A stretch of DNA of 64,000 bases from a bacterium. Lineage in GTDB: Bacteria; Ratteibacteria; UBA8468; B48-G9; DSTR01. Shown piece by piece: positions 952-64,000 of the stretch. The translations under genes and the position numbers were made by a program. The notes under the pieces are model-generated. The model had not been told where the DNA came from, did not search any database, and saw only the letters and a list, made by a program, of their open reading frames with translations. Location of the stretch: positions 50,847-114,846 of the forward strand of contig JAKPFT010000018.1 of NCBI GenBank assembly GCA_029551285.1. Direction: 5' to 3'. Position 1 is the first letter of the stretch, and the number at the start of each line of letters is the position of its first letter.

Positions 952-1398
952 TTAGGACGTTTTCCGAAGGGGAAAGGTTGCTTTAGCACTTTCGTCCAGC
1001 AACTTTTTTAACCTGGCCAGTCTTCTTCTATCTGCTGGAGAAAGACTGACCCGGGGCAGATTGTTTTCCATCTTTTTCTTAAGAGTTTCCGGAATCTTGC
1101 CCCGGTGTTGCCACCAGAACTGGCCCCGCGCTTTTTCCTGAGAGAGAAAAGGTGAAAAGTGCTGATAGCAGTCCGGGCAACCAAGGAAGCGATACCGCCG
1201 GATGTCCTGCCAGCGATATCCGCAGGCCGGACATACCCGGCCAGTTCGTTTCCGTTCCTTCCTGACCGGTGTCCGTGTTTCCTCCAGCGAAACCGCCGCG
1301 ATACAGACCTCCGGGGCGGCCGGGTTTTTTTCCGTCAGGGTCACCACCAGTTTTGTCCAGCCTCCGGCAAGAAAAAAATCTGTCTTACTCGGTTTCAT
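952..1398 (-). CDS. mcsA: McsA-like protein (CxxC zinc motifs)
   Basis: VCPACGYRWQDIRRYRFLGCPDCYQHF double CxxC motif; lies directly upstream of mcsB on the same strand. Confidence 0.85.
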   Translation of the reverse strand: MKPSKTDFFLAGGWTKLVVTLTEKNPAAPEVCIAAVSLEETRTPVRKERKRTGRVCPACGYRWQDIRRYRFLGCPDCYQHFSPFLSQEKARGQFWWQHRGKIPETLKKKMENNLPRVSLSPADRRRLARLKKLLDESAKATFPLRKTS

Positions 1399-2269
1399 AC
1401 ACAGGAATACCTTCCCTTATCGCTTTTTCCTTGAAGGCCTGTCTGATTCTTCCCGTGGTCGGCCCGGGCCGGCCGGTGCCGATAGGACGGCCGTCCAGGG
1501 ATGTTGCCGGGATAATCTCCGCCGCAGTTCCTGTAAGAAAGCATTCGTCGGCCACATAGATGTCGTGTCGGGTAAGGTTTTGTTCCCTGACTTCCAGTCC
1601 GAGACTCCGGCCCAGTTCCATTACTACCTTGCGGGTGACCCCGGCCAGCACGCCGGCGTGCACAGGAGGCGTGGCCAGGACCTGGCCGTGGACCACGAAG
1701 ATATTCTCCCCGGTGCACTCGCTCACATATCCGGCATGATTGAGGATTAAACCTTCGTCGGCGCCGGCGTGATTGGCCTCTATCTTGGCCAGGATGTTAT
1801 TAAGATAATTCAAAGACTTGATGGCCGGGTTGACCGATTCGTGAAGGTTGCGTCTGGTCGCCACCGTCACTACTTTCAATCCTTTTTCGTAGTAACTTTC
1901 CGGATAAAGTTGAATTTTGCTGGCAATAATGAAGATGGTTGGCCGGGGACATTTTCTCGGGTCCAGGCCTAAATCGCCCACCCCCCGGGTGACCACAATC
2001 CGAATATAACTGTCTTTCAACTTGTTGGCTTTCACCGTTTCCATGACTGCCTGCCGCAGGGCCTGCCTGCTCAGCGGCACTTCCAGCATAATCCCGTGAG
2101 CCGACCAGTACAGCCGCTGCAGGTGTTCTTCCAGACAGAAAATACGGCCCTGGTAACTGCGCAACCCTTCAAAGACACCATCTCCGTACAGAAGGCCATG
2201 GTCAAAAACAGATATTTTAGCCTGTTCTTCTGGCACCAGTTTTCCGTTCAGATAGATCAGCAAACCCAT
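1385..2269 (-). CDS. ilvE: Branched-chain amino acid aminotransferase (class IV PLP enzyme)
   Basis: MGLLIYLNGKLVPEEQAKISVFDHGLLYGDGVFEGLRSYQGRIF; AIKSLNYLNNILAKIEA; ECTGENIFVV. Overlaps the mcsA start by 14 bp. Confidence 0.93.
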   Translation of the reverse strand: MGLLIYLNGKLVPEEQAKISVFDHGLLYGDGVFEGLRSYQGRIFCLEEHLQRLYWSAHGIMLEVPLSRQALRQAVMETVKANKLKDSYIRIVVTRGVGDLGLDPRKCPRPTIFIIASKIQLYPESYYEKGLKVVTVATRRNLHESVNPAIKSLNYLNNILAKIEANHAGADEGLILNHAGYVSECTGENIFVVHGQVLATPPVHAGVLAGVTRKVVMELGRSLGLEVREQNLTRHDIYVADECFLTGTAAEIIPATSLDGRPIGTGRPGPTTGRIRQAFKEKAIREGIPVYETE

Positions 2270-2375
2270 TCTCTCCTCCTGTGCCCTGCCCGGGTCCTGT
2301 GACAGACTTTAATTTTTCAGTTTTTTCTTGTTTCTGTCAATGGTTTTGCAACTGCTTCTTTCCCTACCCTTCCCC

Positions 2376-2643
2376 TGTCTAAAAAAGGAAGGGGACAGCT
2401 GGCGAACGAATTGCGAAGGCACAGATACAAGACAAGATGAAAAGCGGCAGCGTTCGGTAAGCGGACCGGAGAAGTTTATCCGGGACGCAATACCTTACTC
2501 GGCGGTGTCTCCAGCTCGCCACCTGGCGAGCGAGTTCGCCGAGCAACCGATTTCGGCGTAGTCCTTGTCTGTGCCGGAGCACTTTGAGTGAGCCAGTTCG
2601 TTCCCTTTCTTTTCATTCCTTAATTTCTTTTCTTTTTTTGACA
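2376..2643 (-). repeat. Dispersed structured repeat, copy 1 (element sense on minus strand)
   Basis: The reverse complement matches 63869-64000 (GTAGTGTCAAAAAA...AGGAATGAAAAGAAAGGGAACGAACTGGCTCACTCAA...GGCACAGACAAGGACTACGCCGAAATCGGTTGCTCGGCGAACTCGCTCGCC). It matches 47567-47798 more distantly (AGTAAGGTATTGCGTCCCGG). Imperfect ends TGTCTAAAAAA / TTTTTTTGACA. Confidence 0.85.
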
Positions 2644-2653
2644 CTACCCCTGC

Positions 2654-3343
2654 CTACGTGATTTTTGTTTTTTCGGTGCGTTCAATCCGGCCATCTTTTA
2701 AGTATACGACCTTCGTGGCTATCTGTAAAAAGATTTCGTTGTGGGTGGCGATGACAAAAGTGGCTGTCTGCTGCTGGTTCAACCGGCCGATGAGGTCAAG
2801 CAGAGATGCTGCCGCCTGCCGGTCAATGGAGCCGGTGGGTTCGTCGGCGAAGACAACCTGGGGCTGGCAGATTAAACTCCGGCAGATGGCCACCCTTTGC
2901 ATTTCTCCTCCGGAAAGCTGGGCCGGGTAAGCATTTTTCTTCCCCAGCAGGTCAAACCTGGCCAGAAGTTCCTCGGCCTGCCGGCGATAGCCGTTGAGCC
3001 CGCTGGCCTGCCTTTCTTTAATCCATAATGGCAGGAAGACATTTTCCCGGACCGTCAACTCCGGCAGGAGATGAAAAAACTGGAAGACAAAGCCAAAGTT
3101 CCGGTTGCGCAGACGAGCCGCCTCCGGGTCAGGCAGATGGGTAATTTCCTGGCCGTTAAGGAAGACCCGACCAGAACTCGGCCGGTCTAAAATGGCCAGG
3201 AGATTTAAAAGGGTGGTTTTCCCTGACCCGGATGGACCCAGCACCACCACGATGTCACCCTGCTGGATCTCCACGGTAACATCAGAAAGCGCAGTCACCG
3301 CTCCGTACTTTTTGGTTAAGCCTTCGCCTCTTAACAGAGCCAT
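2654..3343 (-). CDS. ABC transporter ATP-binding protein (LolD/MacB-type)
   Basis: Walker A GPSGSGKTT, signature LSGGEMQRVAICRSL, Walker B VVFADEPTGSID. Confidence 0.93.
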   Translation of the reverse strand: MALLRGEGLTKKYGAVTALSDVTVEIQQGDIVVVLGPSGSGKTTLLNLLAILDRPSSGRVFLNGQEITHLPDPEAARLRNRNFGFVFQFFHLLPELTVRENVFLPLWIKERQASGLNGYRRQAEELLARFDLLGKKNAYPAQLSGGEMQRVAICRSLICQPQVVFADEPTGSIDRQAAASLLDLIGRLNQQQTATFVIATHNEIFLQIATKVVYLKDGRIERTEKTKIT

Positions 3344-47465: not shown

Positions 47466-47530
47466 GGCAAAACCTGGTAAAACAGTATATTAACAGATTT
47501 CGTCTTTGACGGGAAAGTCTGCTGGTTTCC

Positions 47531-47824
47531 CTAAAATTCCGACCAGACGGAGGTTGTCCAGGAGTATGTCTAACTTCGGGAAGATTTCTGTGCACACGCC
47601 TTGTCGCAGACAAGACTACGCAGCCAATCGGTTACTGGTGCGAACTCATTCGCCAGGTGGCGAATTCAGACACCGCCCAGTAAGGTATTGCGTCCCGGTT
47701 GGACTTGCCCGGTCCGCTTACCGACCGCTGCCGCTTTGGCTGCTTGTCTTGTAGCTGCGCCCTCGGCTACCGTGGCTTGAAATCTCCCCTCGTTGACACC
47801 GTGTTTCTTATGTCGGAATTTTAG
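47531..47824. mobile_element. MITE-like unit: 13-bp perfect terminal inverted repeats flanked by a 7-bp direct repeat, containing structured repeat copy 2
   Basis: GGTTTCC|CTAAAATTCCGAC ... GTCGGAATTTTAG|GGTTTCC. TIRs 47531-47543 and 47812-47824; direct repeats 47524-47530 and 47825-47831. Confidence 0.8.
47567..47798 (+). repeat. Dispersed structured repeat, copy 2 (divergent)
   Basis: ATGTCTAA...CGCAGACAAGACTACGC..CAATCGGTTAC...ATTCGCCAGGTGGCGAAT...CAGTAAGGTATTGCGTCCCGG...GGTCCGCTTACCGA.CGCTGCCGCTTT...CTTGTCTTGTAGCTGCG...TTGACA, colinear with the reverse complement of 2376-2643. Confidence 0.85.
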
Positions 47825-47839
47825 GGTTTCCTGATAAGG

Positions 47840-60593: not shown

Positions 60594-63575
60594 ATGAGGA
60601 GAAAAATAGCCCTGTGTCTAAGTATTTTCTGTGTGACCGGTGTCCTTCTGGCAGAAAACAGAATCAATGTTTACTGGACAGACACGCCGCCGGTGATAGA
60701 CGCCAGGGATAATGACGTCTGCTGGAAGACGGCTGACCGGGCCAAAAACTTTACTCTTTTCAAAAAGGCTGGCCAGCCAACTCAGCCCACCGAGGTGGCT
60801 GTGTGCTATGACGCTGACTGTCTCTATTTGTTCTGGAAACTGTACGATAAGAACCCGGAAAAAATTGTCTTCGGTAACCCGGAAGATGTGCGGGACTTTA
60901 TCACCTGGAAGGATGTGGCGGAACTTTTTCTTGATCCTGGCCAGACGAAGGAACATTACTATCAGTTTGCCGCCTCGCCTTCTGCGGCCAGGTTTGACCT
61001 TTCTTCCAGGAAATCAACCAATTTCAACCCTGACTGGAAGGTGAAAGGGGCTATCTGTGAGTGGGGCTGGGCCTTAGAGATGGCTATTCCTTTCACAGAA
61101 CTGGCTCACCAGAACGAGTTTTTCGGCACGCCGGCGGTCGGCGACGTCTGGGGGATTAACTTCTGTCGGGACCAGGGTTCCTTGCACGAGTGGAGCCAGT
61201 GGGAAGTTTCCATGATGAGTTTCCACGAAGTGAAAAACTTCGGGACAGCTGTCTTCTGCGGCCGGAAAGAAGGGGAGAAACTTCCGACTATAACCGCGGT
61301 GGAGTTTGAGCCGCTTTTCTACGGACCGGGGACTCTCTCTTTCCAGGTGAAGAGCACCCGGCCATACCTGGGATGTGACTTTTTCTTGAGTCAGGACGGC
61401 CAGTCAGTAGTACGAAGAACCGGTGAGAAAGTTGCGCCCGGTCAACTTCAGTTACCTTACCAGATCAGCCGACCTGGCACCTGGCGGCTGGCGGTTTCTT
61501 TCTACGAAGGCAAGAATAAGGTTTATTCTGGCGCCACCTTTTGCCAGTTGCCGCCGGTGGCCGAAAATCTGCTGGAAATCAGGAAAAAGATGGACCAGGC
61601 CAGGATGAAGTTGAAGACATTTCAGCACGCTTACCGGCCCTTGCTGGAAAAGCAACTCAACCGGCTGGAAGAAAACCTGGCCCAAGCCATTCAACAGGTT
61701 CAGCAACCATCTTCCCTGTCCCGGCAGGACTGGCAGAAACTCACTTCCGTGGTGCTGGCGGCTGGCTCAGACTGGAAAAAACTTGATTTTGACCTGGGTC
61801 TGGTGGGCCTTTATCCGGAGAAGAAGACTGCTTCCTTCGGTCTTGTTCCAGTGCCGGCTACAGCCAAAATTTATCCTGACAGCATTCTGACCAGGCCCGC
61901 CGGGCCGGTGAAACTGGCTCTGGCTGGCAACGAATACGAGTCCTTTCAGATGGTGCTGGTTCCTTTCTGGAAAGAGGTGCCGGACATCCAGGTTTCTTTT
62001 TCTGACCTTTCCGGTCCGAAAAAGATTTCCAGAAAAAATTTCTCTTCATTCCGGGTGGAGTACGTCAGGTTAAAAAATGTTGACCCGGAAGACACTCATC
62101 TCCGGGAGTACGAACCGGACATCCTTTTCCCGGCTGAGAAGTTTTCCTTGCAGCCCGGGAAGTTGCAGCCGGTGTGGATTGATTTCTATCTGCCGCCGAA
62201 TACTCCGGCTGGCACCTATCGGGGACGGGTGACGTTCACCACGGGGAAAGAAAGCCGGAGCTGGCCGGTGGAAGTTACCAGTTACGGCTTCAACCTGCCG
62301 CGGAAAAGCAGTATTGAGAACCAGTTCTGGTTCAGTCTTTACCGCTGGAAAAACTTCTACGGCACCCTTGATTATACGCCGGAGCTTTACGCTAAACATG
62401 CGGCAGTACTGTCCCGGTACCGCATCAGTTGTCTTCCTTCTGACTGGATTATTATGTGGGACAAAATCAGGGTCTACTACGAAGAAGACGGTCGTTTCAC
62501 CTTTGATTTCAGCGAACTGGACAAATTTATCAAGATCGGACTGGAGGCTGGTTCCAATACCTACTGGGCTTCCCTTGGCTGCAACTTAGGCTCGCTCACA
62601 CCCTTTTCTCGCCCCTGGACAAAAGTGATTGACCGGAAAACCGGTAAGGAAACTACTCTGGACAGGGTGATGAAGGACTGGCTGGACAAGTTCAGGGAAG
62701 GAAAGACCTACTGGGACGAGAATCCGATGTACCGGGATTACCTCCAGGCATATGTGGCTCATCTGAAAGAACTGGGCCTTCTTGAGACAGCATACTGGGA
62801 GATTTATGACGAACCCAACGACAACAGCCGCTGGCTGGACATGTTGCGGCACCACCGGTGGTTGCGGCAGTTTGTACCGGAACTGAAACTTTTCAATTTT
62901 GGGGTGGAGCCAACCCAGGTGAAGGCTGGCCAGAACGCCCTGGGTCTGATTGATTGCTGGGCGCCGCACATTGACGGTCTTGACGAGCCGGAGATTCTGG
63001 CGGCGATGAAGGAAAGAAGGCAGAAGTACGGTGAGAAGTACTGGTTTTATACCTGCGGAGAAAGAGTAAACAAGGAAGGCGAGTACGCTCCCTTTATCAC
63101 CTATTACCGGCCATACCTGACAGTCCGCATCCATCCCTGGATTGCCTGGAAGTATGAGACCGACGGGTTCTTTATCTTTGCCTTAAGCAGTGTACCTGAT
63201 GATAACGTGAAGAAAAATCCGGAAGAACGCTGGCCGAAAACCGAGTGGTCAGATGGGGCTTACCGGGGCTGCGGCACCCTGGTCTATCCCGGGCCTGAGT
63301 ACCAGGTGATACCCGGAATGAGGCTGGCCCATCTGCGTGACGGATTAGAAGACTACGAATACTTTGCGATTTTGAGAAACAGGTTGAAGTCTGGAGCCGG
63401 CACCAAACAGTGGCAGTCGGCGGCGAAAAAGGCCCTGAAAATTGAACCGGAAATCGTCAGGGATATTTACCACTGGACTAAAGATGTCAGCCTGCTGGAA
63501 GCCAAACGGGCCAGCCTGGCCAGCCTGATTCAGACTTCTTTGAGGCCTCAGAAAAAGTCCGGTGCCCAAAAATGA
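60594..63575 (+). CDS. Secreted GH123/DUF4091-like glycoside hydrolase with N-terminal CBM9-like domain
   Basis: INVYWTDTPPVIDARDNDVCWKTADRAKNFTLFKKAGQPTQPTEVAVCYDADCLYLFWKLYDKN (CBM9-like); AYWEIYDEPNDNSRWLD; GMRLAHLRDGLEDYEYFAILRNRL (DUF4091-like end). ATG 60594 with RBS. Confidence 0.82.
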   Translation: MRRKIALCLSIFCVTGVLLAENRINVYWTDTPPVIDARDNDVCWKTADRAKNFTLFKKAGQPTQPTEVAVCYDADCLYLFWKLYDKNPEKIVFGNPEDVRDFITWKDVAELFLDPGQTKEHYYQFAASPSAARFDLSSRKSTNFNPDWKVKGAICEWGWALEMAIPFTELAHQNEFFGTPAVGDVWGINFCRDQGSLHEWSQWEVSMMSFHEVKNFGTAVFCGRKEGEKLPTITAVEFEPLFYGPGTLSFQVKSTRPYLGCDFFLSQDGQSVVRRTGEKVAPGQLQLPYQISRPGTWRLAVSFYEGKNKVYSGATFCQLPPVAENLLEIRKKMDQARMKLKTFQHAYRPLLEKQLNRLEENLAQAIQQVQQPSSLSRQDWQKLTSVVLAAGSDWKKLDFDLGLVGLYPEKKTASFGLVPVPATAKIYPDSILTRPAGPVKLALAGNEYESFQMVLVPFWKEVPDIQVSFSDLSGPKKISRKNFSSFRVEYVRLKNVDPEDTHLREYEPDILFPAEKFSLQPGKLQPVWIDFYLPPNTPAGTYRGRVTFTTGKESRSWPVEVTSYGFNLPRKSSIENQFWFSLYRWKNFYGTLDYTPELYAKHAAVLSRYRISCLPSDWIIMWDKIRVYYEEDGRFTFDFSELDKFIKIGLEAGSNTYWASLGCNLGSLTPFSRPWTKVIDRKTGKETTLDRVMKDWLDKFREGKTYWDENPMYRDYLQAYVAHLKELGLLETAYWEIYDEPNDNSRWLDMLRHHRWLRQFVPELKLFNFGVEPTQVKAGQNALGLIDCWAPHIDGLDEPEILAAMKERRQKYGEKYWFYTCGERVNKEGEYAPFITYYRPYLTVRIHPWIAWKYETDGFFIFALSSVPDDNVKKNPEERWPKTEWSDGAYRGCGTLVYPGPEYQVIPGMRLAHLRDGLEDYEYFAILRNRLKSGAGTKQWQSAAKKALKIEPEIVRDIYHWTKDVSLLEAKRASLASLIQTSLRPQKKSGAQK

Positions 63576-63852
63576 TTTTCAGAAGAGGATGAGAAGATTC
63601 GTTCAGGAACCAGCCAGGAAAATTCCTGTGAATGAGGAAGCAGAGGTCGTGGTTTTCGGCGGCTGCACCGGAATCTGTGCCGCGGTGGCTGCGGCCAGAC
63701 AGGGTATCAGTGCTCTCCTGGTGATGGTCAACTGCATGCAGTTAGGCCAGGCCGCTGGAGTTGCCGCGGCTCTGGCAGTAAAAAAAGGTCTTAACCCGAA
63801 GGAAGTGCCTGCTGGAGAGATTCAACAACGGCTCAGGGAGTTAGGCGGGTAA
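63562..63852 (+). pseudogene. Internally deleted FAD-dependent oxidoreductase (N- and C-terminal ends joined)
   Basis: RRFVQEPARKIPVNEEAEVVVFGGCTGICAAVAAARQGISALLVM joined directly to VNCMQLGQAAGVAAALAVKKGLNPKEVPAGEIQQRLRELGG. Confidence 0.82.
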
Positions 63853-63868
63853 CAAGGCGGAGAGGTAG

Positions 63869-64000
63869 TGTCAAAAAATGAATGAAAGAGGAATGAAAAG
63901 AAAGGGAACGAACTGGCTCACTCAAGCTGCTCCGGCACAGACAAGGACTACGCCGAAATCGGTTGCTCGGCGAACTCGCTCGCCCAGAGGCGAGCTCAGA
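63869..64000 (+). repeat. Dispersed structured repeat, copy 3 (cut by window end)
   Basis: TGTCAAAAAATGAATGAAAGAGGAATGAAAAGAAAGGGAACGAACTGGCTCACTCAAGCTGCTCCGGCACAGACAAGGACTACGCCGAAATCGGTTGCTCGGCGAACTCGCTCGCCCAGAGGCGAGC, near-identical to the reverse complement of copy 1. Confidence 0.88.

Follow-up and report, generated by a model that had tools for sequence, protein, structure and literature searches.

A MITE-like intergenic element with a covarying multibranched core and a fixed position before start codons in an uncultured Omnitrophota bacterium

A folded intergenic sequence of about 250 bp, repeated within a short stretch of a bacterial genome, raises the question of whether it is a multibranched structured RNA or a folded MITE-like element of high copy number, the two readings offered in an earlier note. 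The stretch analysed here (the window, 64 000 nucleotides, G000:C14:50847-114846) belongs to an uncultured Omnitrophota bacterium, the genome of which comprises 2.72 Mb in 99 contigs.

Elements in the window and their abundance in the genome

The three copies that the earlier note had described were all located where it had placed them; each lies between genes and lacks a conserved ORF, and the shared blocks were confirmed. The following features were assigned:

2293–2648, minus strand: full-length copy 1 of family A, running from GGTAGTGTC (2648) to ...CACAGGACC (2293); boundary conserved across copies, empty site in the same-genus genome G001
2640–2648, minus strand: distal terminal repeat of copy 1, GGTAGTGTC, beside the upstream gene
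2293–2304, minus strand: proximal terminal repeat of copy 1, TGTCACAGGACC (consensus TTTGACAGAACC)
2649–2656, minus strand: left target duplication of copy 1, TAGGCAGG, matching the right one at 6 of 8 positions
2285–2292, minus strand: right target duplication of copy 1, CGGGCAGG
2376–2643, minus strand: module of the earlier note in copy 1, comprising inner inverted repeat and core
2414–2578, minus strand: covarying multibranched core of copy 1 (alignment A1)
1385–2269, minus strand: class IV aminotransferase gene downstream of copy 1; its ATG and the end of the element are 23 nt apart, the Shine–Dalgarno sequence GGAGG lying between them
2654–3343, minus strand: ABC transporter ATPase gene upstream of copy 1, co-directional, with 5 nt between its stop codon and the element
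47531–47824, plus strand: family B element, copy 2, with ends CTAAAATTCCGAC.../...TTATGTCGGAATTTTAG
47524–47530, no strand: left direct repeat of copy 2, GGTTTCC
47825–47831, no strand: right direct repeat of copy 2, GGTTTCC
47603–47764, plus strand: covarying core of copy 2
63864–64000, plus strand: family A element, copy 3, interrupted by the contig end; its start is 11 nt past the upstream stop codon (gene at 63562–63852)

The ends proposed earlier, TGTC(T/A)AA.../...TTGACA, correspond to an inverted repeat that lies further in; the true termini are at 2648 and 2293 in copy 1 and at 47531 and 47824 in copy 2. Those of family A are GGTAGTGTCAAA...TTTGACAGAACC, and its outermost bases form inverted repeats (GGTAGTGTCAAA and GGTTCTGTCAAA) that enclose no conserved ORF, as in a MITE. 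The element starts with GGTAGTGTCAAAAAAGG, usually a few bases past the upstream stop codon, and has the 3' end consensus ...CATTGACAGAAACAAGAAAAGACTAAAAAACAACTTGAAGTCTTTGACAGAACC. Family B carries outer repeats CTAAAATTCCGACATAA and, at several borders, direct repeats of about 7–11 bp. The inner TGTC.../...GACA repeat and a core of about 165 nt are common to both families.

When the host genome was searched with copy 1, 72 matches were listed, most of them 85–94% identical, and copies 1 and 3 were assigned to one family (A), about 90% identical to dozens of other copies. Copy 2 represents a sister family (B) with different outer ends, recovered when copy 2 was used as the query against this genome. 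A covariance model of the core only, which the earlier note had proposed as a check together with a genome-wide search, matched at least 150 places. After the regions had been retrieved, families A and B amounted to at least 108 loci and at least 156 units (72 single, 27 double, 6 triple and 3 quadruple loci, many interrupted by contig ends), these counts being derived from the searches and the retrieved stretches of genome. The original figure of three copies in 64 kb was thus correct in that the copies are real and too low as a measure of abundance, and it had merged two families.

At one third of the loci the units stand head to tail with a period of 300 bp, the repeat consisting of the 268-bp module of 2376–2643 plus a linker. 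Such arrays differ from the short identical repeats and unique spacers of CRISPR arrays: the unit is 300 bp long, the linker recurs, and unique spacers are absent. The true copy number is probably above the count, because the contigs of this genome very often terminate inside family A arrays; the last base of the window (64000) is itself the end of contig C14, within copy 3. The element thus breaks assemblies of this lineage, and it may shuffle operons through recombination between copies. For only 3 of the 62 array units was the closest relative a neighbour in the array; an origin of the arrays by recent local duplication is therefore not supported, and they are probably maintained or rebuilt through exchange between loci. 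Copies of both families appear to exchange sequence, because the core-helix alleles of family A are found in many combinations and family B copies carry the same alleles. A third, divergent core type with an enlarged terminal arm was observed beside a family B copy (L116:3-241, contig C2). The tandem arrays and the two-family split were absent from the earlier note, as were the start-codon position and the homologues in other Omnitrophota families described below.

The covarying core

The fold was assessed in two alignments. In alignment A1 (copies from the host genome, aligned with MAFFT and not fitted to structure), 18 pairs showed double compensatory changes and 93.6% of the cells paired; the covariation score was 0.145, against 0.069 (sd 0.005) for shuffled and at most 0.042 for slid controls, with the kinship of the copies uncorrected. 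When homologues from G008, G013, G015, G017 and G021 were added, 30 of 45 pairs showed double changes and the score was 0.425 against 0.118 for shuffled controls, in an alignment that was fitted to structure and likewise uncorrected for kinship. In both alignments the helices covary above shuffled controls.

The RNAalifold consensus alone lacked helices P2 and P3, both of which were added after the homologues had been viewed. With these helices included, the scores of distant matches increased (L142 from 55.7 to 76.1, L143 from 48.8 to 70.3), and the improved model built from the host genome gained about 10–29 bits over the first model for distant matches. It also revealed a further homologue in another family of the class (G031:C126:6012-6175, L268, E 7e-10), in which the motifs AAATC, AACTC, CTCAGACA and GCGCTnnnGCTTT recur; this homologue is situated among other GC-rich repeats (CCGGTTGATACGGCGGCGG). 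Conservation across families extends to the unpaired motifs AACTC, CTCAGACA and GAACGC...GCTTT. When 85,462 named genomes were scanned with a pattern, all the hits were in Candidatus Omnitrophota MAGs, apart from a single MAG with the label 'bacterium', and no match was obtained in searches of phages, plasmids and viral contigs. The Rfam search suggested earlier, carried out with the window and the homologues at gathering and permissive thresholds, matched no known family.

By these comparisons of sequence, the multibranched fold is real and strongly supported by covariation, which upholds that half of the phrase 'multibranched structured RNA'. The other half fared less well. A transcribed RNA is expected to show a clear G–U excess on its own strand. 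Read on the plus strand of the element, the helix cells contained 1.2% G–T and 2.1% A–C combinations, with 94.1% Watson–Crick pairs; seven tRNAs from the same loci contained 3.3% G–T and 0% A–C. Because the G–T and A–C mismatches are similarly low and neither strand has a wobble excess, the wobble statistics do not indicate whether the core acts as RNA or as DNA.

It is conceivable, if doubtful, that the transposon carries the core as a transcribed non-coding RNA, for instance one that partners an encoded or host protein. Its deep covariation and conserved single-stranded motifs resemble those of structured RNAs, and the strand opposite the downstream genes in the host genome both folds better in copy 1 (z -3.7 against -2.0) and has slightly more wobble pairs; this wobble bias is slight and not significant, however, and the lack of an Rfam match also speaks against such an RNA. 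It is quite unlikely that the pairing is kept by DNA repair (template switching at hairpins) and gene conversion, with no selection for function. Nearly all changes do lead from one Watson–Crick pair to another, with few G–T or A–C cells, and alleles are reshuffled between loci, as such a process would predict, but repair of the arms leaves the conservation of the unpaired motifs across families, and their recurrence in G031, unexplained, and mixed arms persist in 16 copies. In either form the covarying core offers a testable handle, since it predicts a folded DNA or RNA that is recognised by a partner.

Insertion and position before start codons

The two 8-bp flanks of family A elements matched at a mean of 3.67 of 8 positions, compared with 2.28 after permutation (33 loci, z 6.0). 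Matching was confined to the exact boundary register, no other tested register reaching z 2. The match was complete (8/8) at two family A loci in the host genome, and about half of the copies carried no recognisable duplication. An empty site was demonstrated at one locus, that of copy 1, where the same pair of genes in G001 is separated by 23 nt and no element. Near-identical copies with GGTTCTGTCAAA ends and 8/8 duplications (e.g., TTTTCCGA/TTTTCCGA) were found in G021, from another family of the same order, and a related element with the same ends and an 8/8 duplication (TAATATTC/TAATATTC) in G008, from a third family. Judged by its terminal inverted repeats, 8-bp target duplications and empty site, family A is MITE-like; with about 150 copies or more, the earlier description as folded, MITE-like and of high copy number was sound.

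Some further loci bear on the history of individual insertions. A 126-bp deletion derivative in G008 (L188, contig C65) is flanked by perfect 8-bp duplications, and the core would be dispensable for movement if the deletion came before the insertion. In two genomes of one genus (L144 in G013, L152 in G015) an element lies downstream of a thiolase-like gene and a second tandem copy begins, so arrays exist there too; because the site is shared, this insertion may be vertically inherited. The ABC ATPase gene and the gene next to it (mlaF-like and mlaD-like by eye) are adjacent in G001 (G001:C58:2383-3000), and in the host genome mlaF-like and mlaD-like genes occur at separate loci (L128, L084) with a family A element at each broken side. 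This is the arrangement expected if recombination between copies had split the pair, and it suggests shuffling of operons by this route.

In the host genome the GGTTCTGTC end of family A faces a downstream gene of the same direction, and all copies with a resolved downstream gene point the same way. The distance from this end to the chosen start codon, measured on standing copies, was 20–25 nt in 52 of the 61 measurable copies and 22 or 23 nt in 37 of them. In most copies the Shine–Dalgarno hexamer begins 11–13 nt from the element end, which consequently falls just outside it. The consensus motif served to call element ends, and the choice of start codons relied in part on the Shine–Dalgarno score; the alternative rule of taking the 5'-most ATG yielded the same distance mode, and several exceptions to the spacing were traced to an extra in-frame ATG or a mis-set element end. 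The GGTTCTGTC end is also proximal to the gene in G008 (6 of 7 copies 23–27 nt from the ATG) and in G021 (3 of 3 copies, 20–23 nt), the core pointing the opposite way relative to the gene in these two genomes compared with the host genome. The downstream genes are diverse and include those for an aminotransferase, phosphoglycerate kinase, lumazine synthase, a redoxin, RNase PH, Clp and a ferredoxin oxidoreductase subunit, among others. Family B copies in the host genome are without start-codon placement.

Selection alone might produce such a pattern if insertion were random and only the gap between stop codon and Shine–Dalgarno sequence in tight operons tolerated an insert, in one harmless orientation. 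Many loci had short spacers before insertion (13–25 nt) and intragenic insertions would be lost, so this reading has some basis; we nevertheless regard it as unlikely. At all nine loci where 15 nt or more of upstream space was available (spacers of 32–213 nt) the element lies 22–24 nt from the ATG, and 17 of the 19 informative loci fall in the 20–25 nt range, against 4.8 of 19 expected for uniform insertion in the spacer. The recurrence of the spacing in G008 and G021 and its absence from family B copies in the same genome also speak against selection alone. Very improbable is a host regulatory leader, that is, a structured 5' untranslated RNA across a regulon with its spacing fixed by translational control: the fixed spacing, the sense orientation before genes, the strong covariation and the vertical retention downstream of the thiolase-like gene in two g3 genomes (L144, L152) would fit it, but the downstream genes are functionally unrelated, target duplications and the empty site indicate insertion, the core faces the gene oppositely in G008 and G021, the wobble signature of RNA is absent, and in family B the core is found away from start codons.

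Proposed mechanism and relation to known systems

Family A is probably a non-autonomous, MITE-like DNA transposon, directed to start codons and equipped with a conserved folded module, and family B its sister element. Its GGTWSTGTCAAA ends would be recognised by a transposase supplied in trans, possibly one of the IS256 (Mutator-like) type, which would also produce the 8-bp target duplications. Insertion would be directed to translation initiation regions, through targeting rather than selection alone, the GGTTCTGTCAAA end being joined 22–23 nt before the start codon so that the Shine–Dalgarno sequence is spared and the opposite end is turned towards the upstream gene. The multibranched hairpin module between the ends, in tandem at one third of the loci, would be exchanged by homologous recombination and presumably has a function, most likely in the propagation of the element itself as folded DNA or RNA. 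Family B would have the same core with other ends and no start-codon preference.

A more far-reaching proposal, which we put forward as speculative and on balance unlikely, is that the transposition system senses translation initiation regions (either Shine–Dalgarno DNA or the transcription–translation machinery at the start codon) and keeps distance and orientation constant when it inserts, the core being a nucleic-acid component of this machinery and not passive cargo. If directed insertion is correct, it would constitute safe-harbour targeting of a new kind, with the element landing a fixed distance ahead of the start codons of unrelated genes and the ribosome-binding site intact, and a low-cost way of placing DNA inside operons.

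Neither the IS256 nor the ISL3 transposase model matched the host genome, so a resident transposase of either type was rejected as the mover, and no complete transposase with family A ends and no autonomous partner were found. Two decayed IS256-family transposases are present in G001 (G001:C184:2189-4141, L240), with outer ends GGTACTGTCAAG.../GGTTTTGTCAAT...; these decayed copies are bounded by GGTACTGTCAAGTTTTTTCTGTAA and GGTTTTGTCAATTTTTTTCTGTAA, which are similar to the family A ends, with only about 9 of 11 end bases in common. IS256 elements generate target duplications of 8–9 bp. An IS256-type transposase is possibly the mover, which we offer as a lead and not as a demonstration. An IS256 locus in G007 with one TIR-like site was rejected since it has no matching second end, and matches to the TIR pattern in several g3 genomes, single sites with no partner ends, were taken as chance.

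Single sites, tRNA genes, replication features or guide RNAs direct the target-specific transposons known so far, and Tn7, CAST and the yeast element Ty3 insert at a fixed distance and orientation from a recognised feature. Family A resembles the latter three in distance and orientation and differs in that its feature is the start of translation in protein genes unrelated to one another and its targeting factor is putative. It shares 8-bp duplications with IS256, together with ends similar to those of the decayed G001 copies, but lacks a transposase, none being detected in its own genome. REP/REPIN sequences and BIMEs are likewise high-copy, folded intergenic repeats that also form tandem clusters; family A is distinguished from them by its much longer 300-bp unit, its inverted ends with duplications and its fixed position before start codons.

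A search of the available literature found no paper on start-codon-targeted MITEs or on MITEs of Omnitrophota. Position and deeply covarying core set the element apart from ordinary MITE-like elements, and its novelty lies in the fixed choice of start codons as target, for which we found no precedent among such elements. Correia elements, RUP and ERIC are short, non-coding, high-copy intergenic MITEs with inverted repeats and target duplications (PMC10969869), all of which applies to family A; unlike them, it lies in constant orientation at a fixed 22–23 nt from the start codon and has a core that covaries across bacterial families. Correia elements lie mostly immediately upstream of genes, and start codons and Shine–Dalgarno sequences are not mentioned in that review (PMC10969869). 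BrickBuilt of Porphyromonas gingivalis, with 23-nt minisatellite units in 19 copies situated 49–591 nt from coding sequences, is similarly a MITE containing tandem repeats, always intergenic, with a predicted fold, no Rfam match and no internal transposase (PMC4596501), whereas family A has a 300-bp unit with a conserved fold, about 156 units and one end fixed before start codons.
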